Shown here: positions 1,075 through 32,176 of the stretch, in pieces
How positions within the stretch are numbered: position 1 is the stretch's first letter
Layout of the letters: the number at the start of each line of letters is the position of its first letter
From: Synergistes jonesii
GTDB taxonomy: Bacteria > Synergistota > Synergistia > Synergistales > Synergistaceae
Reading direction: 5' to 3'
Assembly (NCBI RefSeq): GCF_000712295.1
Contig: NZ_JMKI01000004.1
Coordinates: 1-64,000 of the forward strand
Length of the DNA: 64,000 nt
Translations under genes and position numbers: made by a program
Notes under the pieces: generated by a model
The model's database searches: none
What the model saw: only the letters and a program-made list of their open reading frames with translations
What the model was told of the DNA's origin: nothing

Positions 1075-3717
1075 CTACACCACAGCGCGGGAAAGTATCA
1101 CATTCTGCCCGTTGGGGATGTAGATAAAATTCTCTCCGTCCGCTATGCGTAGGTTTTCCAATTTCTCCCGCAGCGCCTGCGGGAGAGGCGTCCACGTTAT
1201 CCCGCCGTCCACCGTGACGCTGTACACTCCGTTCTTAGAACCTATGCTGTAGCTCTGGGCGCTTCCGAGCGGGAGTTCAGAGAGCGCTATGTGCGCATAC
1301 GAGTGATACCCTTGGCTGAAAGCCCTGTATTTGGCTACAGTGCTCGACGAGCCGTCGTAGTACGCCTTCACCGCGTCGTAAGCCAATCTCGGCTTAGCCT
1401 GCCCGGTGACTTTCACCTGTCCGGAGACTATCGCACCGACCGTTTTAGTCACGTCCGGCTGTACGGCTACGAAGAAGTTGAAACCAGCCAGCTCATGTGA
1501 TGTGAAATCGCCCGCTTCGTTCAGTATGCCGTAGCAGTAGCGGACGTATTTCGCCCCTTCCGGTATCACGCCTTGGCGCGACGATATGAGCCCACTTATG
1601 GGGTTCAAGGCCCCGTCGTAGAAGTAGCGCGTAATGAGGGAGAAGCGATTGGTCATGCTTTGTGTCCAGTCACTGAGGTCGGTTGTGTCGATATAGTTTT
1701 GTACCTTCCACGACGCCGGCATAAATCCCGAACGTACTCTTTTGGGGTTTTCTGTTTCCATGCCCGTGCTGCTGTTGATGCCGCCTATTTCCCATACGGC
1801 GGCGTTCATGCCGTTGTAGACGTCGATGCGCAAGTCACCGTCTGAGACTTTGCCGCTGACGTAAACGGAGGGCCTGTAGCTGGCCGAATAAATAACGGCG
1901 TCGCTGTCCCTCAATACGGCTTCTTCCAGCGTGTTGCGACGGCCGTCGGCGCTGTTGTATTCGGAGTACGGGGATTCGAGCGGCACTCTCGCGAACATGC
2001 ATTCTAGCGCGGGCGACGACGACGTGGATGTGCCGTGCTCGGCGTCGTATGGGTTGATGCGGTCGAGGAAGCGGCGCATTATAAGATTTTCTTTCACAGC
2101 TTTCCCGTCCGGCCCGACCGTGAGCGTCGGCCCGTAGCCGCCGGACTCTATGCATTCGGGGTGCAGCCTGCCGTCGGCGGCGTCGGTCGGCGTGCTTTCC
2201 ACCCAGCGCCCTGTGAACATAGCCACGTGGTCCCACATGCGGAATAGGTTTTTGAACGAGGGGTATTCCGGCTTGTACGGGTTAGTGCGCCAGAATACCA
2301 GATCTCCGGCCTGTAGCTTGCTGTAGTTTATACCGGGGTCTATCGCCCAGCCGTTTTTGTAGAGCCATTCTATACTGGAGGAAGCTCGAAGGTTGTCTAC
2401 ATACTTTCCCCACGGATAAAAGTGCGTCCCGCGCCAGCGGTTGGTCAACTGCTCGTACCTGCTCTGCCAGTACGGTATACCGCGGATCGCGAGAAATATC
2501 GGCGCTCCGCAGTCGCATGATTTCTCGCACGCGGACGGGGAGCCGCCGCTGTACGCGCTGACGGTGTAAAGGCCGTCGTCGGCCGGCCCCTTGAAGTTCA
2601 TTTCAAGGCTGTCGTTGTTCTCCTCGATGTGCGAACGCCCGTATACCCACGAACGGCCGGCGTAGCTTTCCATGCAGCTTACGAGCTGTCTTGCCGCGAC
2701 TGGGTCGTTCAGTGGTCTTTCGTTGGAAAGTATCGAGTAGGCGTTTATTGCGTTGCAGTCTTTAGGGTTGGGGGTGAAGGCGGTGGGGAACCGGCCTTTT
2801 TCGAGTTTGAAGAGGTGTTTGTCGCCCAAGTCGAATATCGATGCGGCCGTTACGCTGCCGGAGTCGTTTAGGACGTAGCTGTAGAGCCGCATGTAAGTCG
2901 CTTCCGCCGGCACCGTGAAGGTATAGCCTTTTTGCAGCAGCTCTACAGCCGCGGACGACGACGTCTCGAGCAGCCTGCCTACACATTCGTCGTCCGATAT
3001 GTCGATGTCTTCGTAGTGTTCGAGGTGCGCCGGGGCGGGCTGCCTCTCGGCCTCCCTGTAGAAGAAGAGGCGGCAGCCTGCGGAGCCCCACGCTTTTATC
3101 GTATACGTCCCCCCCGCCGTCACCGGTATTTTGCGCCTGTACCTCAGTGCGGCGAATTTCAAGTTGTCCCTGTTGTAATCCGAGCCGACGGGGCCTTCGG
3201 ACTCCGTCACGCACATGCGCCCGCGCTCCCAGCAGCTTACGTTGTGGCGTATGAGGTTTTCGCCCGGGACGCGACTGCGCCCGGCGTTGTCGACGAGCGT
3301 CCCCCCGCCTGTGTTTGTAACCGTCCACATGTCCGCTTCGCAGTCCAGTGTAAGCGTTTTGCCGGCCGCCACATTGAACACGGCTCCGTTGTCTATTTCC
3401 AGATAGACGTTCGCAGGCACCGTCAGGTCGTTCAATACGTTGTACGTCCCCGCCGGCAGCCGCAGCTTTATCGCCGAGCCGTCCGCCCTGTTTATCCACC
3501 AGGCCAGCGAAAGCGGGGAAGAGGCCTCCGCCTGATCCGGCCACACGGCCACCACGTTGTCCGGCGTGAGCGTGTATCCGCCCGCTTTGTTTCCGTCTCC
3601 TACGAGGAGCTTTTTTACGTCTGTCAATACGCCGAGCTCGTTTTCCATCAAGACCGAGGCGGCGGCCTGTGAAGAGGTGCCGCCGCGCTCCGTGCGGCGC
3701 ACTATGTTGGTAGTCAT
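1075..3717 (-). CDS. Large tail spike/fibre with an embedded NlpC/P60-like cysteine peptidase domain
   Basis: An 880-residue protein transcribed after the short tail fibre gene. The N-terminal third (about residues 45-170) looks like a tailspike head with an incipient beta-helix (LRLPAGTYNVL, DNGAVFNVAAGKTLTLD). Around residues 380-520 an NlpC/P60-like unit is visible: CDCGAPIFLAIRGIPYW carries the candidate nucleophile Cys (about 401), LQAGDLVFW is the usual GDLVFF strand, and WDHVAMFTG (about 496) carries the candidate His. The C-terminal part is beta-rich with no recognised domain. The protein probably binds the cell surface and locally hydrolyses wall peptides during infection. AGGT lies before the ATG. 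Confidence 0.75.
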   Translation of the reverse strand: MTTNIVRRTERGGTSSQAAASVLMENELGVLTDVKKLLVGDGNKAGGYTLTPDNVVAVWPDQAEASSPLSLAWWINRADGSAIKLRLPAGTYNVLNDLTVPANVYLEIDNGAVFNVAAGKTLTLDCEADMWTVTNTGGGTLVDNAGRSRVPGENLIRHNVSCWERGRMCVTESEGPVGSDYNRDNLKFAALRYRRKIPVTAGGTYTIKAWGSAGCRLFFYREAERQPAPAHLEHYEDIDISDDECVGRLLETSSSAAVELLQKGYTFTVPAEATYMRLYSYVLNDSGSVTAASIFDLGDKHLFKLEKGRFPTAFTPNPKDCNAINAYSILSNERPLNDPVAARQLVSCMESYAGRSWVYGRSHIEENNDSLEMNFKGPADDGLYTVSAYSGGSPSACEKSCDCGAPIFLAIRGIPYWQSRYEQLTNRWRGTHFYPWGKYVDNLRASSSIEWLYKNGWAIDPGINYSKLQAGDLVFWRTNPYKPEYPSFKNLFRMWDHVAMFTGRWVESTPTDAADGRLHPECIESGGYGPTLTVGPDGKAVKENLIMRRFLDRINPYDAEHGTSTSSSPALECMFARVPLESPYSEYNSADGRRNTLEEAVLRDSDAVIYSASYRPSVYVSGKVSDGDLRIDVYNGMNAAVWEIGGINSSTGMETENPKRVRSGFMPASWKVQNYIDTTDLSDWTQSMTNRFSLITRYFYDGALNPISGLISSRQGVIPEGAKYVRYCYGILNEAGDFTSHELAGFNFFVAVQPDVTKTVGAIVSGQVKVTGQAKPRLAYDAVKAYYDGSSSTVAKYRAFSQGYHSYAHIALSELPLGSAQSYSIGSKNGVYSVTVDGGITWTPLPQALREKLENLRIADGENFIYIPNGQNVILSRAVV

Positions 3718-3739
3718 TTAAAAACCTCCCTGCACAAAA

Positions 3740-4582
3740 TCAGAAAGAGCCGCCCGAAACGAAGGCGGCCGCGGCGTCCCCGAAAGTCCCGCCGCTTTCC
3801 ATATCGTACGTCCCCGCCTGTTGGATCACGGTGACGCGCACCCACATATCCGACTCCGGAGGATACGCGCCGGAGACGTCCGTCCCTATGCACCTGTACG
3901 TATGGCCGTCCACGCAGCAGACCGTATCGGGGTAGCCGTAGACCGTCGACGCGTCCCACGGCGGCACGGAAGAGGCCGAAAGCACGGCGTCCCTGGCCGC
4001 CTCCGCGGCCTCCGCGCTCATCTCCGCCGACGCCTTGGCGGCAAGCGCCGCGTCGGCCGAACTTACGGCCGACGAAGCCGACAGCTGCGCCGCGTCGCGC
4101 GCCGAAAGCGTCTCCCCGTGCTTCTGCGCTATCTCCTCGTAGCGCTCGTGATTCTCCACCACCTGCGCCGCCAGCTCCTCCGCGGAAAGCGAATCGTCCA
4201 CCGGCGCCGTTATCGCGCGCCCCGCGACTTCCGCCAGCTGCTGGATCATCATCACGCCGCGGTCCAGCCCCTTTTCCGTGTCGTCGGCGAAAAAGCGCCC
4301 CTGCTGATTCAGCAGCTTTACCGGCTGCAGCAGCGGCAGCTCCCTCATCAGCGTCAGAGTCCACCCCGCGGGCAGCGCGTCCGCGTCCGCGGAAGCGGGG
4401 TAGACCACCCGCCTCGCTTCGGCGTCCACCCTATAGCCGGACGAAATAAGCTCCGGCGTCCCGCCGGGCCCCGAAACATACACCTTCATATACGAGACGT
4501 CCGGCAGCGGGAAATCGTAACTCCATTCGCGCGTCAGCCCGTTGCCGGCGTGGACCTTCTTACAGCTTTCAAAATCCAGCAT
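3740..4582 (-). CDS. Tail fibre/adaptor with T7-fibre-like N-terminus, Ala-rich coiled coil and carbohydrate-binding-like end
   Basis: About 280 residues. The N-terminal 110 residues resemble the T7 gp17 N-terminal domain that docks fibres to the tail (YDFPLPDVSYMKVYV; later QGRFFADDTEKGLDRGVMMI). The middle (about 150-200) is an Ala/Ser-rich heptad-like coiled coil typical of trimeric fibres. The end has a chitin-binding-like module (WDASTVYGYPDTVCC..Y..W). ATG at 4582 is preferred over the overlapping GTG because AGGAGG is then correctly spaced. It probably anchors the larger spike encoded next. Confidence 0.8.
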   Translation of the reverse strand: MLDFESCKKVHAGNGLTREWSYDFPLPDVSYMKVYVSGPGGTPELISSGYRVDAEARRVVYPASADADALPAGWTLTLMRELPLLQPVKLLNQQGRFFADDTEKGLDRGVMMIQQLAEVAGRAITAPVDDSLSAEELAAQVVENHERYEEIAQKHGETLSARDAAQLSASSAVSSADAALAAKASAEMSAEAAEAARDAVLSASSVPPWDASTVYGYPDTVCCVDGHTYRCIGTDVSGAYPPESDMWVRVTVIQQAGTYDMESGGTFGDAAAAFVSGGSF

Positions 4583-4591
4583 CACAGCCTC

Positions 4592-7231
4592 CTAACCCGC
4601 CGGCGCCACGTCGGCCGTAAGCGCCAGCACCGAACAGGGCAGCGGATGCGGCGCGTAAAGCACCATCCGCCCCTCGTCATAAGAAGAATCAAAGAAAATC
4701 TCGTGGTCGCAGGAAAAGAGCCGCGTAGCCTCCCCGCTCTCCTCATCAGAGCGCTCCGGCACCTCGAAAAGCAGAGCTTTCTGCGCTTCCGAGACCCCCG
4801 GACCGGTATAGACGGCGTTGCCCGGGCCTCCGGCGGCGGCGCCGGCCGAAAGCCCGCGCGTCCTCTCCACGCGCACGCGGACGGAGGCGACGCGGCTCTT
4901 CCGCGTAAGCTGCGCGCCGTCCCTCCTCTGATACGAAAGATCCAGCGTCTCCGCCACAGCGGCGTAGGGCAGCCCCACGTGCACGACGCGCGCCGCCTCC
5001 GGCAGCATTACTCGGCCGTCCTCCACGACCAGCCCCTCCACCGCGTCGCCGTCGGCGTTCGCGCAGACCGTGCGCCCGTTCAGATGCGAAAGCCCGGAGA
5101 CCTCCCTTTGCGCGGACGCGGAGACCCTCGTGATCCCCGCGTCCACCATAAAGGCCTCCGCGGCGGTGGAGGCCTCCATCGGCTCCATCACCTCTATAAA
5201 GCGTTCGGCCCCGCGCCGCACGCAGAGATACACCAGGTCGGAGCCGCGCGAAATCACCGAAGCCACGCGCTCCACGACCCCGTCAGTCGGATAGCGCGCC
5301 CAGGCCACCACCTCGTGCTCGCGTATATACGTCATCCCTATCAGCAGCCCGTCGTCGCGCACCGCCCAGCACATCGAATCCGGCTCCAGCGCGAAAGCCC
5401 AGTCTACGATCTCGCGCCCTTCGAAAAGATGCCTCGCCAGCACCGTCAAGTCGTTGCCCGTATAGCTGTCGGAGGCGTATTCATAGCCCAGGTCGCGGAT
5501 GCGCAGGCCCCGGGCCTGCACGAAAAGAATCATATTGCCCACGACGATCGGCTCTATCGCGGCGCAGCCCCTGTTGCCCTGCAGCCCTACGTCGACGTTG
5601 GAAGGCGTCACTGCGCCCCCCGCCGCTCCGGAAGAAAGCTTCCACTCGCCGCCGGAAGTCATCACCAGCAAGTCTCCCAGCGAGACGAAATACCTGAGGT
5701 CGAACATCTTCCGCGAAACCAGCGTGCCGGAAAGCGCCTCGTCGTCCAGCGCCTCGAACGACGCGCCGAAATCGTAATAATCGCCCGTCTTCGACATCCA
5801 CCAGCTCTGCGGCTGCTCCCGCGTCGAGCCCATAATCAGGCGCTCCTGATAAAATCCTGCGGCCGACGGCCAGCCCTGCGCGTCGCTCCACGCGCCCTCC
5901 TCCCAGTTGACGGTGGCCTTCGTAGCGGCCGCCGCGGTGAGCACCCGCGCCGCCGCCGAAGTGGGGGAGTAGACCGCCGTGATCTTCATCACCGCCCGGT
6001 GCTCGGCCGCGTTCGCCGCCAGCTGGAAATAGCCGCGGTCCTCCTCGCTGTTGCCCTCGGGCACGAAAGTAGTGAACGACGCCGCCCTCACGCGCAGCCG
6101 CGTCGGCTTGTCCACCACGTCCTGATCGCTGTAATTCTTCGCATTGCCGCAGGAGGACGACGTCCCCTCGGCATAACTTTCCGAAATATAAGTCTTATAC
6201 TTCACCCAGGCCGACTCATCCTCGTCGTAATACTCCAAAAACACCGTTCCGCCCCAGAAGCCGCCGGACTCCAGCCGCCAGCCCTTATAGGCCGTCACCT
6301 CGAGCGTCCGGCCGCCGGATGAGGCCGGGACGAAGACCGAACAGTCCACCGCGCCGACGCGCACCGGCGCCGGCGGGGAAAAGGTCACGACGCCCTCCTC
6401 CGAAAGAGAGGAGACGGAGCAGTCGGTATAGCCGTCGCCGCTTACGGCGCTGTAGACGCGGCACCTGCGCCCGACCGCGAAATATCCCCTGTACGCCTCC
6501 GGGACCGTGTAATAATAGCTGTACGTGGGGCCACCCTCGCCCGACGACCCCGTCTCTTCCTGGACCCCGGTGATCGAGGCGGAGGCCCAGGCGCCGCCGG
6601 CGTCTCCGGAGGACTTCACCGAAACCTCGTCCACATGATGAATGACCGAAAAAAGCCCGCCAACGTGCCCCGACTTAAAGAGCGGCGCCGAGGCGGTAAG
6701 GACGATATTTCCCGTCTTGGCCGAGAGCCCTACCGCGACCGCCTCTATATCGGCCCCGTGCCCGCGCCAGGGGCCGTTCTTAAAGGCGAAATCCGCCAGC
6801 ACCCAGTTCGTGTCATTGACGCGGTACAACTCACGCGGCCTGTGATTCTTATGCACGATATAAAGCACGTCCGCCGACTGCGTGAACGACAGCCCGTCGA
6901 TATCGGCCGCCGAATAGGGCGTCGCCACCTCGTACGGCTCCGACCCCGACTGGATCTGCCTTCCGTCGCGGTAAAAGCGCACATACCTGTCGCCGAACTC
7001 CAGCACATACGTCTGATCTATCGAATACTCGAACTCCACCAGCCGGCACTTCCCCTTAGCCTTGGCCACGAACCTCATCCCCGCGCGCTTAGTGATCCCG
7101 CCGTGCGGATGTATCACGAAATTCTCGCATCTCCGCAGCCCGGCGGCGTACTTCGCTAAGTCCGGCCGTCCGAAAAGCGCCGGAGAAATCTCGCCCGAAG
7201 CGAAAGAAGTCTGCAAAGTGCGTATGCTCAT
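4592..7231 (-). CDS. Tail tubular protein B / tail nozzle (T7 gp12-like)
   Basis: An 879-residue structural protein starting SIRTLQTSFASGEISP, the typical opening of podovirus nozzle proteins, followed by AGLRRCENFVIHPHGG and FEYSIDQTYVLEFGD, both family hallmarks. It forms the nozzle of the short tail through which DNA exits and to which fibres attach. Its start overlaps the stop of the tail tubular protein A gene by four bases, indicating coupled translation. Length is within the normal range for this family. Confidence 0.9.
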   Translation of the reverse strand: MSIRTLQTSFASGEISPALFGRPDLAKYAAGLRRCENFVIHPHGGITKRAGMRFVAKAKGKCRLVEFEYSIDQTYVLEFGDRYVRFYRDGRQIQSGSEPYEVATPYSAADIDGLSFTQSADVLYIVHKNHRPRELYRVNDTNWVLADFAFKNGPWRGHGADIEAVAVGLSAKTGNIVLTASAPLFKSGHVGGLFSVIHHVDEVSVKSSGDAGGAWASASITGVQEETGSSGEGGPTYSYYYTVPEAYRGYFAVGRRCRVYSAVSGDGYTDCSVSSLSEEGVVTFSPPAPVRVGAVDCSVFVPASSGGRTLEVTAYKGWRLESGGFWGGTVFLEYYDEDESAWVKYKTYISESYAEGTSSSCGNAKNYSDQDVVDKPTRLRVRAASFTTFVPEGNSEEDRGYFQLAANAAEHRAVMKITAVYSPTSAAARVLTAAAATKATVNWEEGAWSDAQGWPSAAGFYQERLIMGSTREQPQSWWMSKTGDYYDFGASFEALDDEALSGTLVSRKMFDLRYFVSLGDLLVMTSGGEWKLSSGAAGGAVTPSNVDVGLQGNRGCAAIEPIVVGNMILFVQARGLRIRDLGYEYASDSYTGNDLTVLARHLFEGREIVDWAFALEPDSMCWAVRDDGLLIGMTYIREHEVVAWARYPTDGVVERVASVISRGSDLVYLCVRRGAERFIEVMEPMEASTAAEAFMVDAGITRVSASAQREVSGLSHLNGRTVCANADGDAVEGLVVEDGRVMLPEAARVVHVGLPYAAVAETLDLSYQRRDGAQLTRKSRVASVRVRVERTRGLSAGAAAGGPGNAVYTGPGVSEAQKALLFEVPERSDEESGEATRLFSCDHEIFFDSSYDEGRMVLYAPHPLPCSVLALTADVAPAG

Positions 7232-8148: not shown

Positions 8149-8547
8149 CTACAGATCCTCATAAGAGTGATGGTCTCCCTCTACAAGGAACATATCCACC
8201 TTGCCCGCCGTAAAAGTCCCCGTCACGTCGATATACCCGCGCAGATACCTCTTGCAGCCGCGCGGGACGCGCACCGCGAAGAGCTTCTTCCCGGCCGTGA
8301 GCTCCGCCAGCGTGACTTCGTCGCTCCTGTAAAGCGCCTTCTTCGTCGAAAAATCGCTTGCGTCCGAAGTTTCAAGCGAAAACACCGCCGAAGTCCCGCC
8401 GGCTCCGGCGGCGGAGCAGACGCCGACGAAATACATCTCGTCGCCTATCGCGTCGCCGCCCTTCACGAGATCTATGACGTCCGTCGCCGCGTCTCCTCCG
8501 GAGAGCTCCTTACCCTCGCAGAAAATAAGATCCTTCTCAAGTATCAT
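8149..8547 (-). CDS. Capsid cement/decoration protein, Bbp16-like
   Basis: A 132-residue beta-rich protein opening ILEKDLIFCEGKEL, followed by DVIDLVKGGDAIGDEMYFVG. This is the layout of the Bbp16 cement proteins that bind the shell of BPP-1-type podoviruses and stabilise it. It directly follows the major capsid gene, as expected. AGGAGG precedes the ATG. The function is inferred from family resemblance recalled for this gene order. Confidence 0.7.
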   Translation of the reverse strand: MILEKDLIFCEGKELSGGDAATDVIDLVKGGDAIGDEMYFVGVCSAAGAGGTSAVFSLETSDASDFSTKKALYRSDEVTLAELTAGKKLFAVRVPRGCKRYLRGYIDVTGTFTAGKVDMFLVEGDHHSYEDL

Positions 8548-8561
8548 CTTTTCTTACCTCC

Positions 8562-9569
8562 TTAAGCTACCGCCGCTTCGTTGTTCTTGATGGTGTCCAC
8601 CTGGCGGATGGGCACGCCCCAGAACGAAGTGACCGGCTTGCCGCCCACCTCGTCCACCTTCAGCGCCAGCGTCGAGCGGTTCGCCGCCTGTAAATTCAGC
8701 GCCGTCATCACCGTGCGGTTGCAATAGATGACCCGCCTGCCCATATCGGCCTTCGGGAACTTGCCGAACGCCGTAATAAGCAGGTTGATGAGATCCGCGC
8801 CGGCGTAGCCCGACGAGCCGGAGCCCGCGAGATCCGATACGTCGATATTGGCGATGCGCACGCCGTAGCGCCAGTCGCGCACGCAGAAGCCCATATCCCA
8901 CTTATAATGCGTCACATACGCCTCATACTTCTTGTTGCTCGCGTCGCGCACCGTCTGCTGCCCGCGGAAGTCGACGGAAATCCCCGCCTTGCTCCCGCGC
9001 GGATAAAGGCCGTGCATCGTCTGCGTCCCCCAGTTGAGGATATAGATAGACGTGTTGTCCGTCCCCGAGCCGCCGCCGTCTACGACGTTGAAGCCGATCT
9101 TCTTCTCGTCCGTCGAAAGCGTGCAGTAGCGCGCCGCAAGCCCGGTGAACTTCGCCGTATCCTTCTTCTCGTTGCCGTAGATCAGCGTATCCGCCATCTC
9201 GATATTCATACGCTCCAAGAACGAAGAACTCTCCGAAAGCAGAAAGGCCGCCTTGTCGGGCGCCATATCTGCAAGAGCCTTGTCAATCTCGCTGTAAGTT
9301 TCAAGCATGCCGCAGGAGTCCTGAATCTGCTCCGTCTCGCTCTTCGACGACGGCACGCCTTCGTAGAGCTTGCGCCATGTCGCCTCCGGCAGCCCCGTCC
9401 TCACAGTGGTCTTGTGCGTGTGGCCGCTGTTGCACTGCTCGAAGACCATATCGTCAAGAATCGCGTTCTGCTCCGACAGCATCTCCACGATCTTCGCGAT
9501 CTTCCCGTTCCCGTCGGTGCGACGGGCCACATCCATAAGCGTCGGGTTGTTTCCGCCTAAAATAGCCAT
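8562..9569 (-). CDS. Major capsid protein (BPP-1/Bbp17-like)
   Basis: A 335-residue protein with the expected length and pattern of the major capsid protein of this podovirus group: NNPTLMDVARRTDGNG at the start, QNAILDDMVFEQCN, a LPEATWRKLYEG segment, and a C-terminal KVDEVGGKPVTSFWGVPIRQVD strand region. The fold is presumably HK97-like. It follows the scaffold gene and precedes the cement gene. A strong AGGAGG lies before the ATG, consistent with high expression. Confidence 0.88.
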   Translation of the reverse strand: MAILGGNNPTLMDVARRTDGNGKIAKIVEMLSEQNAILDDMVFEQCNSGHTHKTTVRTGLPEATWRKLYEGVPSSKSETEQIQDSCGMLETYSEIDKALADMAPDKAAFLLSESSSFLERMNIEMADTLIYGNEKKDTAKFTGLAARYCTLSTDEKKIGFNVVDGGGSGTDNTSIYILNWGTQTMHGLYPRGSKAGISVDFRGQQTVRDASNKKYEAYVTHYKWDMGFCVRDWRYGVRIANIDVSDLAGSGSSGYAGADLINLLITAFGKFPKADMGRRVIYCNRTVMTALNLQAANRSTLALKVDEVGGKPVTSFWGVPIRQVDTIKNNEAAVA

Positions 9570-15614: not shown

Positions 15615-15929
15615 ATGGCCGGCAAGACAGCCATGCTGCACATAAGGATAGAACCGGACATAAAAGAAGAAGCCGATTACATCTTCGGGCAGATAGGCAT
15701 CACTACCTCCGACGCCGTTAAAATATTCCTGCGCAAAGCCATCTATTCATCCGGCTTCCCGTTTGAAGTGACCGCGCCGACGCCCAACGCGGAAACTATC
15801 GCGGCCATGGAAGAGGCCAAACGCATAGCGCACGATCCGAACGCGAAAACATACGCCGATTTCAGCGAAATACTCAAAGAAATCGACGAAGAAATAGCCG
15901 ACGAGGAAAAAGCCCCGTGTCTAAGCTGA
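15615..15929 (+). CDS. dinJ: Antitoxin, RelB/DinJ family (pair 1)
   Basis: A 104-residue protein with the RelB/DinJ ribbon-helix-helix N-terminus (AMLHIRIEPDIKEEADYIFG, then TTSDAVKIFLRKAI) and an acidic C-terminus that would cover the toxin. AGGGGG precedes the ATG; a TACAAT -10-like box is at 15578-15583. The stop overlaps the toxin start by 13 bases. It would repress its own promoter with the toxin. It reads opposite to the phage late genes, so it is an independent unit. Confidence 0.9.
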   Translation: MAGKTAMLHIRIEPDIKEEADYIFGQIGITTSDAVKIFLRKAIYSSGFPFEVTAPTPNAETIAAMEEAKRIAHDPNAKTYADFSEILKEIDEEIADEEKAPCLS

Positions 15930-16201
15930 CGGTTCGACAGACCAGCCAATTTAAGAAAGAACTCAAAAAGGCGAGAAAACAGGGCAAAGAGATGGCCGCA
16001 ATGGATAAAGCCGTCTCTTTGCTCCAAAACTGTGAGGCCCTGCCGCCTAAATTCAAAGACCACGCCCTCACGGGCGACTGGAAGGGCTATCGCGAGTGCC
16101 ACCTCTCGCCGGACTGGCTGTTGGTTTATATGATAGAAAACGACGTCCTCGTACTCACCCTCACCCGTACCGGCAGCCACGCCGAAATATTCGGCAAATA
16201 A
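15917..16201 (+). CDS. yafQ: mRNA interferase toxin, YafQ family (pair 1)
   Basis: A 94-residue toxin of the RelE superfamily. The YafQ catalytic set is present: His in FKDHAL, His in ECHL, Asp-Trp in PDWLL, and the C-terminal SHAEIF His/Phe. It cleaves mRNA on the ribosome when freed from its antitoxin. It is translationally coupled to the antitoxin and followed by a strong terminator. In a prophage it could serve stabilisation or exclusion. Confidence 0.9.
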   Translation: MSKLTVRQTSQFKKELKKARKQGKEMAAMDKAVSLLQNCEALPPKFKDHALTGDWKGYRECHLSPDWLLVYMIENDVLVLTLTRTGSHAEIFGK

Positions 16202-16489: not shown

Positions 16490-16930
16490 TCATTTCAACC
16501 TGCCGGTTCGCCAGTCTTCAAGCAGAGACTGCACAGAAAGCAGCGGCCGGTAGAGGCGGTAAAGCGCGCTGTTGAGCAGCCGGTATACGTGCCTTTCGGT
16601 AAACCCAAGTTCACGGGCGATATCCGACACCTCCATGTTCCGCCAGTATCGCAGCGCCAAAACACGACGTTCCTTCTCCTCAAGCTCGCAGTAGGGCTCG
16701 TAAATACCGGACATCAGGGATTTCAACTTCCTCATCACGGGATCGTTGTATCGTTCCAGATACCTGTCGCCGGCCGCAACGGCGCCGCTTCCGTCCACGG
16801 GCTCGTCCCAGAGGCAGCCGCAGGACATAGCCTGAGCGTCGAGCATCAGCTTGTAGCCGTCGTGGTCCTTCTTAATAGCGGGGAAGTCCTTAATCGCCCC
16901 TTCCACCATCCTGTGCCTGTACGTCGCCAT
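16490..16930 (-). CDS. Phage late-gene regulator, RinA/ArpU-like sigma-region-4 HTH
   Basis: A 146-residue protein. The C-terminal half is a sigma-70 region-4/ArpU-type helix-turn-helix: EEKERRVLALRYWRNMEVSD followed by IARELGFTERHVYRLLNSAL. Such proteins activate terminase and structural genes late in infection. It sits between the replication module and the terminase, the usual place. AAGGAGG precedes the ATG. The gene is separated from terS by the oppositely oriented TA pair, so it may act on a promoter near 15530-15610. Confidence 0.8.
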   Translation of the reverse strand: MATYRHRMVEGAIKDFPAIKKDHDGYKLMLDAQAMSCGCLWDEPVDGSGAVAAGDRYLERYNDPVMRKLKSLMSGIYEPYCELEEKERRVLALRYWRNMEVSDIARELGFTERHVYRLLNSALYRLYRPLLSVQSLLEDWRTGRLK

Positions 16931-17001: not shown

Positions 17002-17056
17002 AGGCGAAGCTGAAAAATCACCTTAGGGCTCGCCTAGTGCCGCGTGCGTTTCGCGG
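17002..17056. repeat. Dispersed 55-nt hairpin element, copy 2 (origin region)
   Basis: Ungapped match to 10087-10141; the final CGCCTAGT plus stem GCCGC/GCGGC and loop GTGCGTTTC are identical. Here it is noncoding and abuts the first iteron at 17058. A partial further copy (GTGCGTTTCGCG) lies at about 16966-16977, with a perfect seven-base hairpin CTTCGCC/GGCGAAG at 16992-17008. Confidence 0.65.
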
Positions 17057-17057
17057 C

Positions 17058-17389
17058 GCGAACATGTGCACCTGTTCGCAACATGTTCGCAAATATGTTC
17101 GCGCCCTCGAAGCCTTGCAGTTACTGGAAAAATCGGCGGTTGCGAACATTGCGAACATATTTACCCCTTATTTTTAGAAAATCATTTAAAGAAGAAAAAA
17201 TCTTTTTTATACGGTTTTTTCGTGTCTGCTGTTCGCAGGGTACAGTTATCCCCTGTGATACCAACGGTTTTTTTGCGCGAACATGTTTGCGAACATGTTG
17301 GAAATATGTTCGCGCCGGTATCGCTGAAGCCTTGCTGTCACCGGCTTTTTTAATGCGAACATGTTTTGTTGACTATATGAATTGTTCGC
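17058..17389. other. Iteron array with AT-rich core: candidate phage replication origin
   Basis: About 330 bp without a gene. The heptamer GCGAACA or its complement TGTTCGC occurs about twelve times: 17058, 17073, 17084, 17096, 17142, 17151, 17230, 17277, 17289, 17307, 17355 and 17383. The first two form an almost perfect 22-bp palindrome (17058-17079). Units near 17078-17128 and 17289-17345 are ~50-bp direct repeats (shared AATATGTTCGCGCC and GAAGCCTTGC). Between the two clusters, 17158-17220 is strikingly AT-rich. Iterons flanking an AT-rich stretch next to a primase-helicase gene is the layout of a replication origin; operator function is the alternative. Confidence 0.6.
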
Positions 17390-17400
17390 GCTATCTTTTG

Positions 17401-19749
17401 TTACAAATCATCTTCCGACACCTCCAGCGGGATCGTGCGCTTGGGCGGCACGCGCCACATTCTGGCGTTGGAATGCCCCATCGGCCTGGACTTCCCCCCG
17501 GTGAGTTTCGCCAGCACTTTGCCCGCCTTTATCACGTCGCCCGGCTTGGGCGTGGAGCTGGGAGGGTAGCCGCAGTCGTACAGCACCTGGGTGGTCGTCG
17601 CGTATCTCCAGATTTCGGGCATGGCTTTCCATTCAAGGCCGACGGCTATCATTTCCTCTATGCTGGACGGGACTTCGAATTCCTGGTTGAGTTCCGCGAG
17701 CAGCGCGTCTTCTTCTTTCGTCAGCCACCAGCGGTATTCGTCGTTTTTGGGCTCTTTTAAGTGCATGAGGTAGTAACGTTCGTAGACTTCCCGCCACATC
17801 TGCTGCATTTCGCCGCGGTCGAGCGGCATGATCTTGACTAGGGGGATGCACCACCAGCGGGAATTGCCCGTGTCGTCGATGAGGAATTGCCGCTGGTTCA
17901 CCGTGGCGCCGTATATCGTGCGGCGCTGGAAGTCCGATTCCCTGCGGCTCCACGGCATGCGCAGCTTGTCCGAGCCGCGCGTCAGAAAGGCTTTCAAGAT
18001 GGGCACTTCGGAGCGGTTGAAGGTGCCTTCTAATTCTCCGTATTCCACGCCCCAGGCCGATATGGCGGCTTTCACGCTGTCTTTGTCTTTCAGGTTGAGC
18101 CCCACGCCTTCGGAAAAGAATTCGTCTTTCCCGAAGAGGATGCGGAACCAGGTGGTTTTGCCTATGCCCTGTCCGCCGACGAAGGTCAGCACTCCGCGAC
18201 AGCGGAAGCCGCTTTGCATGAAGACGGCCGCTACGCCGGAGATGAGCCAGCGGCGGATGAGCGTTTCTTTGAAGCCGCGCGGGAAGTCCCTCTCCTCCAC
18301 AAGAGAATCGTAAACATTTTGCAGACGCGAAAAGCCGTCCCAGGGTTCGGAGAGTATCCAATCTTTCACCGGGTTGACGATGTTCTGCGAACCTATGTTG
18401 GAAATAAGGGGGTCGATGTCGCCTTTCGGCATGCGCCAGCGCGAGCAGAGGGAGAGTATTTCGCCCATCGCGGCGTTTTTCGCGTTGTCGCCGCACCATG
18501 TGCGCCCCGGCATGGAAAAGACTTCTTCTTTTTTTATTTCGTCGTAGGATACGGTCATGCCGGCGAAGGCCAGCAGCGCCCGCAGGTTTTCCACGGTGCC
18601 CAGCGGCCGGCCGCCTTCCGTCAGGTCTACGAATTGGGGCTCTCTGTGTTTCAGCTTGTAGAGGCCCTCGTTTTTGAAGGCCTCCAGTTTTTTCAGCATC
18701 AGCGCCCTCGTCTTTTTCAATCCGTTTTTGACGGCGTAGTCGTTCCAGTCCGTGCCTTCGTCGTCTTGGGCGAAGTCCGGATAGACGAAGGGGACGCCCG
18801 TTTCTTCAAAGACTTTTATCGCGGCCGTCGCCCCCGGGTTTCCCGCCGTATGCCTGTCATTATCGGCGGCCACGACGAATTCTTTTTCCGGCCAGAGGCG
18901 GCGGACGTTTTTTACCACGGGCAATAGGTTGCCGGCGTCGCAGCCGATTATCACGGCGTCGCCGGTCGCCTCCGCCACTGAGCAGGCCGTCGCCCACCCT
19001 TCGGCGATCCAGACGCGCGCCGATAGGCGCGCTTCGTCGAAGCCCGAAGGGGCGCCGGAGGCTTCAGACCCCTTGTCATCCGCCCGCGCGTCGGAAGGCG
19101 CGGAAGGGGAAGAGGCGGAAGAGGGCCCTCCGCTGGACGGGACGTCCATATAGATCACGCCGAAGTTGCCCCGCTTGGGCGCCGAGGTCTCGAAGAGTTT
19201 TTTGGCGCCCTGCCGCTGCGGTATGGTCTGCACGTTGACGACGGCGCCGCTCGCGTCGAAGAGCGGCCACAGCAGGTCCTGTCCCAATATCCGGGCGCCG
19301 TGGACGGACCGCAGCCGCTTTCTTGAGGCGTATTTGTGCGACGCGTCGGCCGGCGTCGCCGCCGCCCACTTCCGCCGCGCGAGGGCCGAGGCCTCGGCCT
19401 GCGACGACGCCTTCTTCCGCGCGGCTTCGGCCCTTTCCCGCTCCCACTTCTCGGCCAGCGCTTCCCGTTCTGCGGCCGACAGGGAACGAAAATCCGCATC
19501 CCCGCGCGGGTCCCACATGTAAAACTCCCCCGTGCGCCAGTTGTGCAGCCAGCCGCGCGGGAATTCGTCGTTGAATATCCTGTATTCGCCGTTCTTGCTC
19601 CTGGGCTTGTCTCCGGAGAGCGTGCAGCGGTGCTTGCGCCCGTCGATCTTAAGCCCCTCGCCGGAAGCGAGGTAGACTCCCTCGCCTCCGAGAAAATCAA
19701 GAAAAGCCCGCTCGATGTCAAAAATTCCCCAATCGCCCAGATCCCTCAC
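17401..19749 (-). CDS. Phage replication primase-helicase: Toprim plus VirE-type ATPase
   Basis: A 782-residue protein. The N-terminus (1-130) has a zinc-finger-like/primase-associated region (KIDGRKHRCTLSGDKPRS). A Toprim domain covers about 235-330 (RVWIAEGWATACSVAEATGD, VVAADNDRHTAGNPG). A VirE/D5-like superfamily 3 ATPase follows, with Walker A GGQGIGKTTW, an EYGELEG Walker B-like strand and a TIYGATVNQRQFLIDDTGN sensor region. It would prime and unwind phage DNA. The iteron array lies immediately beyond its stop. The start is GTG 19749, the most upstream possible; the ribosome-binding site is poorly spaced, so the start is uncertain. Confidence 0.85.
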   Translation of the reverse strand: MRDLGDWGIFDIERAFLDFLGGEGVYLASGEGLKIDGRKHRCTLSGDKPRSKNGEYRIFNDEFPRGWLHNWRTGEFYMWDPRGDADFRSLSAAEREALAEKWERERAEAARKKASSQAEASALARRKWAAATPADASHKYASRKRLRSVHGARILGQDLLWPLFDASGAVVNVQTIPQRQGAKKLFETSAPKRGNFGVIYMDVPSSGGPSSASSPSAPSDARADDKGSEASGAPSGFDEARLSARVWIAEGWATACSVAEATGDAVIIGCDAGNLLPVVKNVRRLWPEKEFVVAADNDRHTAGNPGATAAIKVFEETGVPFVYPDFAQDDEGTDWNDYAVKNGLKKTRALMLKKLEAFKNEGLYKLKHREPQFVDLTEGGRPLGTVENLRALLAFAGMTVSYDEIKKEEVFSMPGRTWCGDNAKNAAMGEILSLCSRWRMPKGDIDPLISNIGSQNIVNPVKDWILSEPWDGFSRLQNVYDSLVEERDFPRGFKETLIRRWLISGVAAVFMQSGFRCRGVLTFVGGQGIGKTTWFRILFGKDEFFSEGVGLNLKDKDSVKAAISAWGVEYGELEGTFNRSEVPILKAFLTRGSDKLRMPWSRRESDFQRRTIYGATVNQRQFLIDDTGNSRWWCIPLVKIMPLDRGEMQQMWREVYERYYLMHLKEPKNDEYRWWLTKEEDALLAELNQEFEVPSSIEEMIAVGLEWKAMPEIWRYATTTQVLYDCGYPPSSTPKPGDVIKAGKVLAKLTGGKSRPMGHSNARMWRVPPKRTIPLEVSEDDL

Positions 19750-19809: not shown

Positions 19810-20055
19810 CTACTTGCCCAGCTCCTGCCCTTCGACGTCCTCGATCCAGAACTTAAGATCGCGGTTCGGCTCCGCCAAAGCGGCCTCCACCGAAGATTCC
19901 ACCATCGGCTCAACGATAGGTATATACTCGTCGGCGATAAGATCCTCGTCGAGCGACACCTCCTCCGGCATCCCCTCGTACCTCTCCAGCAGCTTCTTCA
20001 ACTCATCCAGCTGCCTCTCCGTCACGAAAAACCTTTTCCCGTCATTCATCTTCAT
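19810..20055 (-). CDS. Hypothetical early phage protein, 81 aa (duplicate copy A)
   Basis: An 81-residue very acidic protein (RQLDELKKLLERYEGMPEEV; later DEYIPIVEPMVESSVEAA). It is nearly identical to the 80-aa product of 21089-21331, with only a few substitutions and a different C-terminal tail. AAGGAG precedes the ATG. No known family is recognised. High identity at the DNA level, including the leader, shows a recent duplication within the early operon. Confidence 0.65.
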   Translation of the reverse strand: MKMNDGKRFFVTERQLDELKKLLERYEGMPEEVSLDEDLIADEYIPIVEPMVESSVEAALAEPNRDLKFWIEDVEGQELGK

Positions 20056-20074: not shown

Positions 20075-20299
20075 TTATATGCCTGAGTCCCGTGCGCCGC
20101 TATCGCTCGGGGCTCTCTTTTTCCGCCCGCGCGTCTCTGCCGGCAGAAGCTTCTCGGCGTCCATGATCACCGTGCCATGTTCGACACAGCGGCGCATATA
20201 CTCGGGGAAAGAATAAATATCATCCCAGCCGTGCCGCAGGTAGTATGCGTACAGCTCAGACTCAGTGCACTCGATGATTTTGCCTTTTTGCGCTTTCAT
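20075..20299 (-). CDS. Chimeric hypothetical early protein, 74 aa
   Basis: A 74-residue protein whose first ~47 residues (KIIECTESELYAYYLRHGWD, SFPEYMRRCVEHGTVI) match the 56-aa product of 21712-21882. Its last ~22 residues (LPAETRGRKKRAPSDSGARD) match the end of the 116-aa product of 21369-21719. It therefore looks like a fusion created by a deletion in one copy of a duplicated cassette. Its start overlaps the PAPS-reductase-like gene stop. Function unknown. Confidence 0.6.
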   Translation of the reverse strand: MKAQKGKIIECTESELYAYYLRHGWDDIYSFPEYMRRCVEHGTVIMDAEKLLPAETRGRKKRAPSDSGARDSGI

Positions 20300-21084
20300 T
20301 AGTTCGCCTCCTCAAAAATTCTCGCTTGCGGGTTATGGTTCCGGAAAAATGTTTTGTCTTCGATCCACCAGTTCCACACGTCCTGTGCCGTGCGCCACGT
20401 ATCGGACTTTTTGCCTACATCGCGCCTGTGTTGCAGCATTTTGTCGAACGCGCGAAGATAAAGCGCTTTATATTTCGACCAACGTTCAGCATGGCGTATC
20501 CTTGTCTGCACATTTGCCATTGGGCAACAAATGCAACCCAGGCGGGCAAAGCCTTCGTCGTAGAGTCCGCAGTATGACAGGCTGCCCCCGCGTATGTATT
20601 CCCACACTTCGCGTTCCGTCCAGTCGAATATGAGATGCAGGTATTGCCCATTTTTTCTACGCTTCGGCTCTATTTTTTGTCTTTTCGCCCTGTGCACGCT
20701 CTCGTCGCGACGGACGCCTGTTACGCAGATAGTTCTGCCATCTCCGCCGTGCTCCTTGAGTGCCGCACAGCAATAACGCATTATGCGCGTCGGGGGCGTG
20801 TTTTTGGCGACGATTAGCGCCCACATGCTCAGGCGCGGGCTATGCATGGCAACGTCGGGCTGTGCCCGGATGAAGTAGACCAGCTCCGGCGGGTCTACGG
20901 TCGTAACACAGTAGTGCGCGTCATATTTGACTCCGGAGCGCCGCACGAGGTCGAGCACGACGGTGCTGTCTTTACCTCCGGAGTACGCGACATAATAGCC
21001 GTCCGGCGGCTCCATTTCACGTAATATGCCGATAGCCTCGGCTACTTTATCGCGGGGTCCGAAGAGCGTGTTTTCATACAGCAC
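20299..21084 (-). CDS. PAPS-reductase-family (PP-loop ATPase) protein, phage-borne
   Basis: A 261-residue protein with the PP-loop YYVAYSGGKDSTVVLDL near residues 29-45, the MRYCCAALKEHGG motif, a TGVRRDES segment, and a late CICC (GCICCPMANV) pair that, with the earlier CC, could bind an iron-sulfur cluster. These features fit the phosphoadenosine phosphosulfate reductase superfamily, which includes CysH enzymes and the DndC-type sulfur-transfer enzymes of DNA phosphorothioation. No dndB, dndD or dndE is in the window, so the substrate is not known. It is flanked by the duplicated cassette, suggesting separate acquisition. Confidence 0.8.
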   Translation of the reverse strand: MLYENTLFGPRDKVAEAIGILREMEPPDGYYVAYSGGKDSTVVLDLVRRSGVKYDAHYCVTTVDPPELVYFIRAQPDVAMHSPRLSMWALIVAKNTPPTRIMRYCCAALKEHGGDGRTICVTGVRRDESVHRAKRQKIEPKRRKNGQYLHLIFDWTEREVWEYIRGGSLSYCGLYDEGFARLGCICCPMANVQTRIRHAERWSKYKALYLRAFDKMLQHRRDVGKKSDTWRTAQDVWNWWIEDKTFFRNHNPQARIFEEAN

Positions 21085-21088
21085 GACG

Positions 21089-21331
21089 CTATGCTAACTC
21101 CTGCTGCTCGACGTCCTCGATCCAGAACTTAAGATCGCGGTTCGGCTCCGCCAAAGCGGCCTCCACCGAAGATTCCACCATCGGCTCAACGATAGGTATA
21201 TACTCGTCGGCGATAAGATCCTCTTCGAGCGACACCTCCTCCGGCATCCCCTCGTACCTCTCCAGCAGCTTCTTCAGCTCATCCAGCTGCCTCTCCGTCA
21301 CGAAAAACCTTTTCCCGTCATTCATCTTCAT
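21089..21331 (-). CDS. Hypothetical early phage protein, 80 aa (duplicate copy B)
   Basis: An 80-residue acidic protein, paralogous to 19810-20055 and differing by only a few residues (EEDL for DEDL; ending EQQELA). AAGGAG lies before the ATG. It sits just upstream of the PAPS-reductase-like gene with a four-base gap. Function unknown. Confidence 0.65.
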   Translation of the reverse strand: MKMNDGKRFFVTERQLDELKKLLERYEGMPEEVSLEEDLIADEYIPIVEPMVESSVEAALAEPNRDLKFWIEDVEQQELA

Positions 21332-24423: not shown

Positions 24424-24855
24424 ATGAACATTGGAGACATAATTGCTAAACGCAGGAAAGAAAGTAATTTCAGCCAAGAACAATTGGCTGAAGCTGCTGA
24501 GATTAGCCAGAGCTATATCAGCAGAATCGAACTCGGAAAAGAAAAACCTTCTTTTGAGTTGTTAGAACGTATAGCAGTAGCTCTCAATTGCGAGTTATTT
24601 ATCGATTTAGTGCCTATCGGCGAGCAGCGTCGGCTCTTTACCCCAGATGAATATCCGGTAGAAGACAACGCCGCTCTGCAAACATCGACGCCGACATGGC
24701 TCACCCTTGAAAACGCGCGCGCTCTTACTATTTTCGGCATCGCATATCAAAAATTGGAAATAGAAAAGAATACGCTCTCAACAGCCGAACTCAAGGCACT
24801 TGAAGGCATTATTGAAACATGTTTATCACTGATAACCCCAAAAGGAGGAGAATAA
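24424..24855 (+). CDS. CI-like XRE-family repressor, 143 aa
   Basis: A 143-residue protein with an N-terminal HTH_3 (NFSQEQLAEAAEISQSYISR, then IELGKEKPSFELLERIAVAL) and a C-terminal helical region (LTLENARALTIFGIAYQKLE) that lacks a LexA/CI-type self-cleavage domain. Induction would therefore depend on another signal. It heads a tight rightward operon: one base to the next gene and 23 bases to the third. Those two genes would therefore be expressed in the lysogen. Confidence 0.8.
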   Translation: MNIGDIIAKRRKESNFSQEQLAEAAEISQSYISRIELGKEKPSFELLERIAVALNCELFIDLVPIGEQRRLFTPDEYPVEDNAALQTSTPTWLTLENARALTIFGIAYQKLEIEKNTLSTAELKALEGIIETCLSLITPKGGE

Positions 24856-25254: not shown

Positions 25255-26244
25255 ATGTCATATCCAGCTACTGTTTATAAAATTTTCACAGCTTCTCCTT
25301 CCGACACATCAGAAGAGCGCAAAATAGTAGACGATACAATAAAAGAGTGGAATATCGTCAATTCAGAAAAAAATAGAGTGGTGCTTATGGATATGTCTGC
25401 GAAGCAAAACGCCTACGCTGACAGTGGAAAACCGCCACAGAAAATAATCAATAATCAGTTGGTTAAGGACGCGGATATATTAGTTGCCATCTTCAAGCGG
25501 AAATTCGGCAGCCCCACCGACACGCATCCGAGCGGCACTGCGGAAGAGATAGACATCCAAATAAATAAAAAGAAACCGGTTATGCTTTTTTTCTACAACA
25601 GAGAAACAGCAAGAGACGAGTTCGATTCTTGTAAAAATGATATTCAGAAAATTAACGAACTCAAAGATAAGTATAAGAACAATACATACTATCAGCTATA
25701 CCAATCTACTATAGATTTCAAAGACATATTCCGCAAAAACTTATACCAACTTGTTAACCAATACTGCATACACCAGCCTGTTGTCGAAGAAAGCGTTGAT
25801 GACTTCAATGCTCGAATACAAAAAATAATAGACGATCCCAAAATGTTCCGAATCAATATATTTACATATCCCAACAATGGGTATGCAGATGATACATACA
25901 ATTTGTATGACGACGATACTCCGACATCAACAACACAATATTCCGGCACTGGAAATCTGTATTGCTACAAGGAGAAATCTTTAAAAGATATTTTCCCATA
26001 TGTATCAAGTGCTGTTTGTACAAACAGAAAGACGGATGCGGGGGGATTTGAAAATGCAATAAAGCGCGCCGCGCTTGATAACGATTCAATGTCAATGAGC
26101 GATCTTTTTTTAGGCGATGGTATAGCAGATGAAATTATTGGAAGTATGGTAACAAAAGGACTGTTAAAACGTGAAAGTGAAAATGGATTTTTTATTTTAA
26201 CCGATTTAGGACTCGCACTAAGCATACGCCTAGAGAGGACATAA
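25255..26244 (+). CDS. Deoxyribosyltransferase/TIR-like (DUF4062-type) protein with C-terminal winged helix
   Basis: A 329-residue protein. The N-terminal ~120 residues have the Rossmann-like pattern of the DUF4062/nucleoside deoxyribosyltransferase/TIR-like group: KIFTASPSDTSEERKIVDD, a VKDADILVAIFKRKFGSPT strand-helix, and the key GTAEEID with a candidate catalytic Glu, followed by KKPVMLFFYN. The middle is charged and variable. The end (MSMSDLFLGDGIADEIIGSM, LLKRESENGFFILTDLGLAL) looks like a winged helix. Members of this broad group hydrolyse NAD or nucleotides, or form scaffolds in defence. It is expressed in the CI-like operon, so it is a candidate prophage exclusion effector. Confidence 0.65.
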   Translation: MSYPATVYKIFTASPSDTSEERKIVDDTIKEWNIVNSEKNRVVLMDMSAKQNAYADSGKPPQKIINNQLVKDADILVAIFKRKFGSPTDTHPSGTAEEIDIQINKKKPVMLFFYNRETARDEFDSCKNDIQKINELKDKYKNNTYYQLYQSTIDFKDIFRKNLYQLVNQYCIHQPVVEESVDDFNARIQKIIDDPKMFRINIFTYPNNGYADDTYNLYDDDTPTSTTQYSGTGNLYCYKEKSLKDIFPYVSSAVCTNRKTDAGGFENAIKRAALDNDSMSMSDLFLGDGIADEIIGSMVTKGLLKRESENGFFILTDLGLALSIRLERT

Positions 26245-28851: not shown

Positions 28852-28878
28852 ATAGACACATAAAAGGAGGTGCGGATC

Positions 28879-29142
28879 ATGGGCACAGTATGTGACAATG
28901 TGGTGCGTTTCCGGATCGACTCGGAAACAAAAGCAAAAGCCGCCGAAGCTTTAGATTGCATGGGACTCACCATATCCGACGCCATGCGCATAACGCTGCG
29001 CAGGATAAGCGAAGAAGGGCGCCTGCCCTTTGATGTGGAAATCCCGAACGCCCGCACCCGCCGCGCGATACGCGACATGCGCGAAGGGCGGACAACCCGC
29101 TTTGAGACCGTCGAAGAAGCTCTGAAAGACTTAGGCCTCTGA
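28879..29142 (+). CDS. dinJ: Antitoxin, RelB/DinJ family (pair 2)
   Basis: 87 residues from ATG 28879, which is correctly spaced from AAAGGAGG (a GTG nine bases earlier is too close). RelB/DinJ-type ribbon-helix-helix: VVRFRIDSETKAKAAEALDC, then TISDAMRITLRRISEEG. The acidic end (VEEALKDLGL) would contact the toxin. It is only distantly similar to pair 1 in this prophage. The stop is one base from the toxin start. Confidence 0.9.
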   Translation: MGTVCDNVVRFRIDSETKAKAAEALDCMGLTISDAMRITLRRISEEGRLPFDVEIPNARTRRAIRDMREGRTTRFETVEEALKDLGL

Positions 29143-29143
29143 T

Positions 29144-29416
29144 ATGTTGGCCATTGAGCTTACAGCCCAATTTAGGCGCGACAAAAAACGAATGGAAAAG
29201 CGCGGCGCCGACATGACAAAACTTCGGGGCGCCATCCTTCTGCTTGCGTCAGAAGCGGAAATACCGCCGAAATATAAAGACCACGCGCTGAAAGGCAATT
29301 GGGAAGGATGCCGCGATCTTCATATAGAAGCGGACTGGCTTCTGATATACGAAATCAAAGATAACACGCTGGGACTTGCCCGTACCGGCACGCACGCGGA
29401 CCTGTTCGGGGGATAA
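29144..29416 (+). CDS. yafQ: mRNA interferase toxin, YafQ family (pair 2)
   Basis: A 90-residue RelE/YafQ toxin. The catalytic set is kept: YKDHAL, DLHI, ADWLL and THADLF. Compared with pair 1 it is about two residues shorter just before the ARTGTH strand, which could alter the final beta strand. It is followed by a terminator. It belongs to the cargo block bracketed by the integrase-derived repeats. Confidence 0.88.
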   Translation: MLAIELTAQFRRDKKRMEKRGADMTKLRGAILLLASEAEIPPKYKDHALKGNWEGCRDLHIEADWLLIYEIKDNTLGLARTGTHADLFGG

Positions 29417-31823: not shown

Positions 31824-31860
31824 TGGTGGAGACGCGGGGAATCGAACCCCGGTCCAACAG
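31824..31860. other. Phage attachment site (right end), within the tmRNA 3' end
   Basis: The T-arm and acceptor end of ssrA (GGTTCGATTCCCC and the CCA end) is the likely crossover core. The matching left att copy is not in this window, as expected if the prophage continues beyond position 1. The exact core length cannot be read from one end alone. Confidence 0.6.
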
Positions 31861-32176
31861 AAGACAATCTGGAGGGCGCTACGTGCGTAGCCTACATTTT
31901 AAATTTCAGGGCTGCGGCTCCCACAGGCAGGATACGCTTTCCCAATCCCCTCCTGTATCTCGGACGGCAGCCGAAGGGCTCTGCTGCGGCCCCAGCCGTC
32001 TTTGTGACGCCCTTCCGGTACCCGACGGCGGAAGCGCCGGAGAGCGCGCTGCTTAATTAAGCAGCGAGTGCGTAATTGTCTTCGACAATTATTGTTTTGG
32101 AGCCGGATTTACGAGGTTTCCCCATCCTCGGCACGCTCCCCCCGACCCTCCGCTGTTGTCGAAACCTGTCGTCCCC
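31824..32176 (-). ncRNA. ssrA: tmRNA (transfer-messenger RNA)
   Basis: A 353-nt one-piece tmRNA. The 5' end GGGGACG pairs with the 3' CGUCUCC ahead of ACCA, forming the acceptor stem. The T-arm reads GGTTCGATTCC. The tag frame ends in IVEDNYALAA followed by TAA (stop at 32057-32059), giving the proteolysis tag ending ALAA. It rescues stalled ribosomes with SmpB, encoded 73 bases upstream. Its 3' end is the prophage insertion site and stays intact. Confidence 0.95.

Follow-up and report, generated by a model that had tools for sequence, protein, structure and literature searches.

Candidate replication origin with paired iteron clusters beside the Toprim-VapE primase-helicase gene of a Synergistes jonesii prophage

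The repeat array at 17058-17389 in a Synergistes jonesii prophage is very probably the replication origin of that prophage, bound by the C-terminus of the product of the neighbouring gene 17401-19749, which would melt the AT-rich core of the array and load itself there (all positions are those of the window, that is, the whole 64-kb stretch of DNA that was analysed). The steps from binding through hexamer assembly, melting and self-loading to the activity of the origin itself are all proposed here by analogy with the SaPI/PICI initiators: after induction, the Toprim-VapE protein would bind the GCGAACA iterons through a C-terminal winged helix, assemble as hexamers on both iteron clusters, melt the AT core of roughly 70 bp, and then load itself as helicase, after which its Toprim domain may supply primers and the phage DNA would be copied by proteins of the host. 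The array was found by computation, as were its conserved position and order in relatives, the joint change of its iterons, and the match between the iteron word and primase residue 761. An origin had been proposed in the initial annotation, and the proposal is strengthened by this conserved position and order, by the tie between the word and the predicted DNA-binding domain of the primase, by a layout shared with SaPI/PICI origins, and by the occurrence of the same module on plasmids.

The array contains exactly 12 copies of the heptamer GCGAACA/TGTTCGC, in agreement with the dozen or so counted initially, out of 23 in the whole window, where shuffled windows give an expectation of 12.4 per 64 kb. 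From the frequency in the S. jonesii genome (454 copies per 2,741,240 bases), 0.054 copies are expected in 332 bp; the density in the array is ~220-fold the host-genome rate (Poisson P about 1e-24), which answers the initial concern that the heptamer might be equally dense elsewhere in the host. When the whole array was used as a genome query, the single matching place was 17058-17389 itself. Six iterons lie on either side of an AT-rich core of ~70 bp (Table 1), the spacing between adjacent iterons often being 9-12 bp. The strongly AT-rich stretch described earlier (17158-17220) is 81% AT, and the near-perfect 22-bp palindrome at the low end of the array (17058-17079) matches at 20/22 positions. 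Two direct-repeat units of ~50 bp had also been described; direct repeats are present, at a smaller size, as a 36-nt pair (17070-17105 and 17281-17316, 72% identity) followed by a 19-nt pair, D4 (84%). Two + strand open reading frames that overlap the array (17044-17760 and 17066-17353) were taken as spurious, the flanking genes running the opposite way. GC skew showed no inflection at the array, and is uninformative here because the prophage genes mostly run one way.

Table 1. Features of the array and its neighbouring genes, in window coordinates.
Feature	Position	Strand	Basis or remark
Iteron cluster distal to primase	17058..17157		six GCGAACA; order kept in relatives
Distal-cluster iterons	17058-17064(+), 17073-17079(-), 17084-17090(-), 17096-17102(-), 17142-17148(+), 17151-17157(+)		
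AT-rich core, predicted DNA-unwinding element	17158..17229		between both iteron clusters
Iteron cluster proximal to primase	17230..17389		six iterons
Proximal-cluster iterons	17230-17236(-), 17277-17283(+), 17289-17295(+), 17307-17313(-), 17355-17361(+), 17383-17389(-)		
Type II repeat (second class), copy 1, CCAGTAACTGCAAGGCTTC	17109..17127	-	direct repeat D4; kept in relatives
Type II repeat, opposite orientation, CCTGTGATACCAACGG, reverse strand CCGTTGGTATCACAGG	17252..17267	+	TTGGTATNAC box
Type II repeat, CCGGTGACAGCAAGGCTTC	17326..17344	-	direct repeat D4
Toprim_3 + VapE-like primase-helicase, 782 aa, predicted initiator	17401..19749	-	domain matches, model, fold match
C-terminal winged helix, residues about 713-770, predicted iteron-binding domain	17440..17613	-	model, column scan
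Wing residue Asn761 codon	17467-17469	-	column scan
Sigma-70 region 4-like regulator (phrog_36), downstream of array	16490..16930	-	candidate secondary regulatory target

The array lies directly 3' of the primase gene, with 11 bp between the primase stop codon and the first iteron. The gene product (Toprim_3 plus VapE-like, phage DNA primase family) gave an AlphaFold2 model with a mean pLDDT of 84.8, ending in a C-terminal winged helix with a helix at residues 736-750 and a wing loop at 758-761. This winged helix is the predicted DNA-binding part of the protein, in place of the N-terminal part named in the initial annotation. The top match among solved folds is PriRep1 with dsDNA (7pds; E 2.8e-20, TM-score 0.62 on target), which was deposited as similar to D. 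nodosus vapE and which we take to be a SaPI protein.

The closest known systems are the SaPI/PICI replication modules (pri-rep-ori; e.g. in SaPIbov1, SaPI5 and EcCICFT073). PICI origins always contain two iteron sets around an AT-rich region and support plasmid replication in E. coli (PMC6092414), and the C-terminal domain of SaPI Rep recognises iterons directly downstream of its own gene (PMC7581432). The S. jonesii locus resembles these modules in having its array immediately 3' of the gene for the initiator helicase (PMC6092414, PMC7581432), in the two iteron sets around an AT-rich region (here six plus six around an 81% AT core), in the VapE-like helicase fold, for which PriRep1 is the closest match, and in the C-terminal winged helix seen in the model; binding of the iterons through the C-terminal domain (PMC7581432) may be a further parallel, as the match between wing residue 761 and the iteron word would suggest. 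By contrast, the S. jonesii locus belongs to a full-size prophage that encodes head and tail proteins of its own, its protein carries a Toprim primase domain where the SaPI primases belong to the AEP family (PMC7581432), and a second conserved repeat class is present in its close relatives. The locus would work like a SaPI/PICI origin, but the element is not a PICI: PICIs lack a full virion gene set and are helper-dependent, whereas terminases, adaptor, major head and tail proteins are all encoded here. The term "new", applied initially to the candidate origin, does not suit its layout, since the two-cluster AT-core arrangement is shared with SaPI/PICI origins. Cch2 of SCCmec is also similar, in that the C-terminal domain of this initiator helicase, when isolated, binds direct repeats located on the 3' side of the gene (PMC7581432), but Cch2 and its putative origin differ in having a Primase_Cterm/D5-related helicase, only three iterons, and a separate A-family polymerase primase. 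The P4 alpha protein with ori/crr is likened by description, as a fused primase and helicase with a cognate origin (PMC6092414, PMC7145576).

A query with the single primase-helicase protein returned none of the relatives' contigs, which were found with an aligned query. Sequence comparison brought in, as relatives with a name, Candidatus Caccocola faecipullorum, a Synergistaceae genome and Fretibacterium fastidiosum; in a viral contig, a primase of 99% identity is accompanied by an array that is nearly identical as well. The array follows the related primase gene in the same order in six other Synergistaceae/Fretibacterium-type genomes (G138, G170, G127, G128, G132 and G039; primase identity roughly 39-74%), with an AT-rich segment at the equivalent place, so the array is not absent beside the same primase in related prophages, a possibility that the initial annotation had raised against an origin. 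The iteron word changes as a set, from GCGAACA (window, G138, G170) to GCGAGCA (G127), GCGGACA (G128, G039) and GCTGACA (G132). The type II repeat reads roughly GTNATANCAANGNTT (TTGGTATNAC in reverse) and persists in the five closest relatives through the changes in the iterons; among close relatives, its three copies vary less than the iterons do. The type II box was rejected as a feature of VapE origins in general, being present outside the Synergistaceae group in L113 and L324 only.

The array also lies directly upstream of the regulator gene 16490-16930, which would suit the second suggestion of the initial annotation, that of a large operator controlling the late regulator. In the strict form of this suggestion, the regulator itself or a different HTH protein of the phage would occupy the heptamers to control the late switch, and the array would have no role in replication. 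We consider this unlikely. It would fit phage KA2-1, where the array sits before a late activator, and it would fit the G127/G128 pair, in which regulator and iterons differ alike: the two primases are 94% identical overall and 75-84% identical in residues 661-780, the regulators are 80% identical, and the arrays have similar AT cores and type II boxes, with the same two-base exchange shared by the iterons. Because the regulator diverges too, this pair alone cannot separate initiator from regulator as the owner of the array, and a single recombined block may have carried the primase end, the array and the regulator. The window and G138, by contrast, share the word GCGAACA, yet their regulator HTH is 57% identical, against 81% for the primase recognition helix plus wing and 91% for the wing.

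Further evidence on the choice of binding protein comes from a wider survey of VapE-type loci, in which a locus was scored as having an array when a single heptamer occurred at least five times no more than 420 bp from the stop codon of the primase gene. Such arrays were found at 46/201 distinct loci, compared with 33/2592 background windows, and in the final set 77/283 loci have an exact array within 420 bp; thus, the arrangement is not universal. The array is not always next to a regulator gene, since the next sizeable gene after it encodes a transposase in L159, a dATP/dGTP diphosphohydrolase in L063, and a VRR-NUC-like protein in L288 (below the Pfam cut-off). In the F. fastidiosum locus L159, the IS4/5-type transposase ORF (8533-9072) comes right after the array, where close relatives have the regulator.

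Arrays lacking such a regulator are also found on plasmids. E. coli and Salmonella harbour closed circular plasmids (9.1 and 9.3 kb) in which the Toprim-VapE protein is the only recognisable replication protein (for the E. coli plasmid, the scan covered 9/11 genes) and is accompanied by 11 TGACACC iterons in two clusters; the rep-array stretch has matches on plasmids only, and none on E. coli chromosomes. Similar arrays are present in pPSEST02, pAURM-2 and pTM2, in the last case 1.3 kb from the gene. These three, together with pSCU-121-2 and pR17.0904_9.3k (proteins 35% identical to that of the window over residues 246-770), are small circular plasmids with Toprim-VapE or VapE proteins. They resemble the S. 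jonesii locus in having iteron arrays downstream of a gene for a VapE-type protein, and differ in their iteron words (TGACACC, GGTGGGA, TGAACCA, TGGGACA) and in not being virion-forming as far as annotated. These plasmid relatives suggest that the array and primase module may support autonomous replication. The 9.1-kb E. coli plasmid pSCU-121-2 (L379) carries a phage minor-tail gene besides its Toprim-VapE replicon (3364-5655), and may be a phage satellite that is maintained in plasmid form.

The varied downstream genes, the plasmid arrays, and the lower identity of the regulator HTH compared with the primase wing favour the initiator over the regulator as the array-binding protein. Arrays without a regulator thus weaken the operator suggestion as a sole role, while a secondary regulatory role may exist alongside replication. 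Such a dual site, at which the bound initiator would also repress or delay the adjacent late regulator and so tie late expression to replication, overlaps with the origin reading, and is a possibility to be entertained tentatively. The array lies between primase and regulator in the window and close relatives, and in KA2-1 and Alexa it has late genes nearby. Its distance from the primase is 2.3-3 kb in phages KA2-1 and Mica, where it is close to late genes, which makes a joint role with late regulation possible. Arrays without a downstream regulator count against a dual site as well, and in the array region promoter-like sites occur at chance level only, with no terminator-like sites found.

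A scan of 707 primase columns covered the 15 long-wing loci that possess an array. Residue 761, in the wing of the winged helix, was the only column to match the iteron word perfectly (normalised mutual information 1.0; next 0.717), with Asn accompanying GAACA/GAGCA (4/4), Arg accompanying GGACA (5/5) and Gly accompanying TGAC (6/6), the word classes having been named after the pattern was seen. The maximum from 300 label shuffles was 0.77, but label shuffles ignore relatedness, and a tree was therefore built on residues 360-700, without the winged-helix domain. This tree shows five changes of iteron class and five of residue 761; no fewer than four changes on supported branches are required for the GGACA label, and all independent pairs are concordant, though too few for a significant sign test. 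A fresh scan for further long-wing loci yielded L270 as the only testable addition to the 15, and it has Gly and, as the rule predicts, eight copies of AGTGACA, which lie in a 420-bp segment that starts about 1.2-1.35 kb downstream. Initiators with a short wing lack an aligned position 761, so the rule is limited to the long-wing clade; GKERAK-type relatives have no clear array near the primase. A bulk Mantel-type correlation between iteron similarity and primase-segment identity over 37 loci was weak and not specific to the winged helix (partial r 0.13 for the winged helix, 0.17 for the N-terminus), and was discarded as a line of evidence. The comparison of relatives suggests that one primase residue tracks the exact spelling of the repeat. 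Within the wider origin reading, we lean slightly towards the view that, in one clade, initiator and all iterons switch specificity together, residue 761 going with the word. In a literature search, neither the spread of a satellite-type origin to full phages nor the one-residue correlation was found.

Iteron arrays act as incompatibility, partition or packaging sites in some plasmids, and a small terminase gene lies about 1.4 kb from the S. jonesii array. That the array is such a site, and not a replication start, is nevertheless highly improbable: no partition gene was found among the scanned proteins, the word tracks the predicted DNA-binding domain of the initiator, and the same layout stands 3' of the rep gene on a plasmid without a recognised terminase.

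Beyond the regulator, the prophage contains genes for small and large terminase, head-tail adaptor, major head and tail proteins, and no further replication genes were recognised among the prophage proteins scanned, which included part of the small ORFs. A tmRNA gene (31824-32176, tag VEDNYALAA) directly adjoins the integrase gene and is the probable attachment site of the prophage. Two nearly identical ORFs of 80-81 aa (MKMNDGKRFFVTERQ..., 19810-20055 and 21089-21331) flank a PAPS-reductase-like gene (20299-21084), and are a recent duplication. Two toxin-antitoxin-like gene pairs (15615-16201 and 28870-29416), each with a RelE-like second gene (phrog_7251), run against the phage genes on the other strand; the former is located between the late regulator and the terminase genes. 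The segment 24000-29000 is AT-rich (GC 0.38-0.44, compared with about 0.6 nearby), contains a Cro/C1-type regulator (24424-24855) and unassigned ORFs, among them 25255-26244, without a PHROG match, and looks like a cargo or defence segment.

If the origin reading is correct, it would locate the replication start in a poorly studied group of Synergistaceae prophages, and would extend the satellite-type origin to whole phages and small plasmids. It would also supply a natural example of an initiator whose specificity shifted in step with that of about ten repeats in its origin, and the accompanying prediction, which concerns one residue, is testable in vitro.
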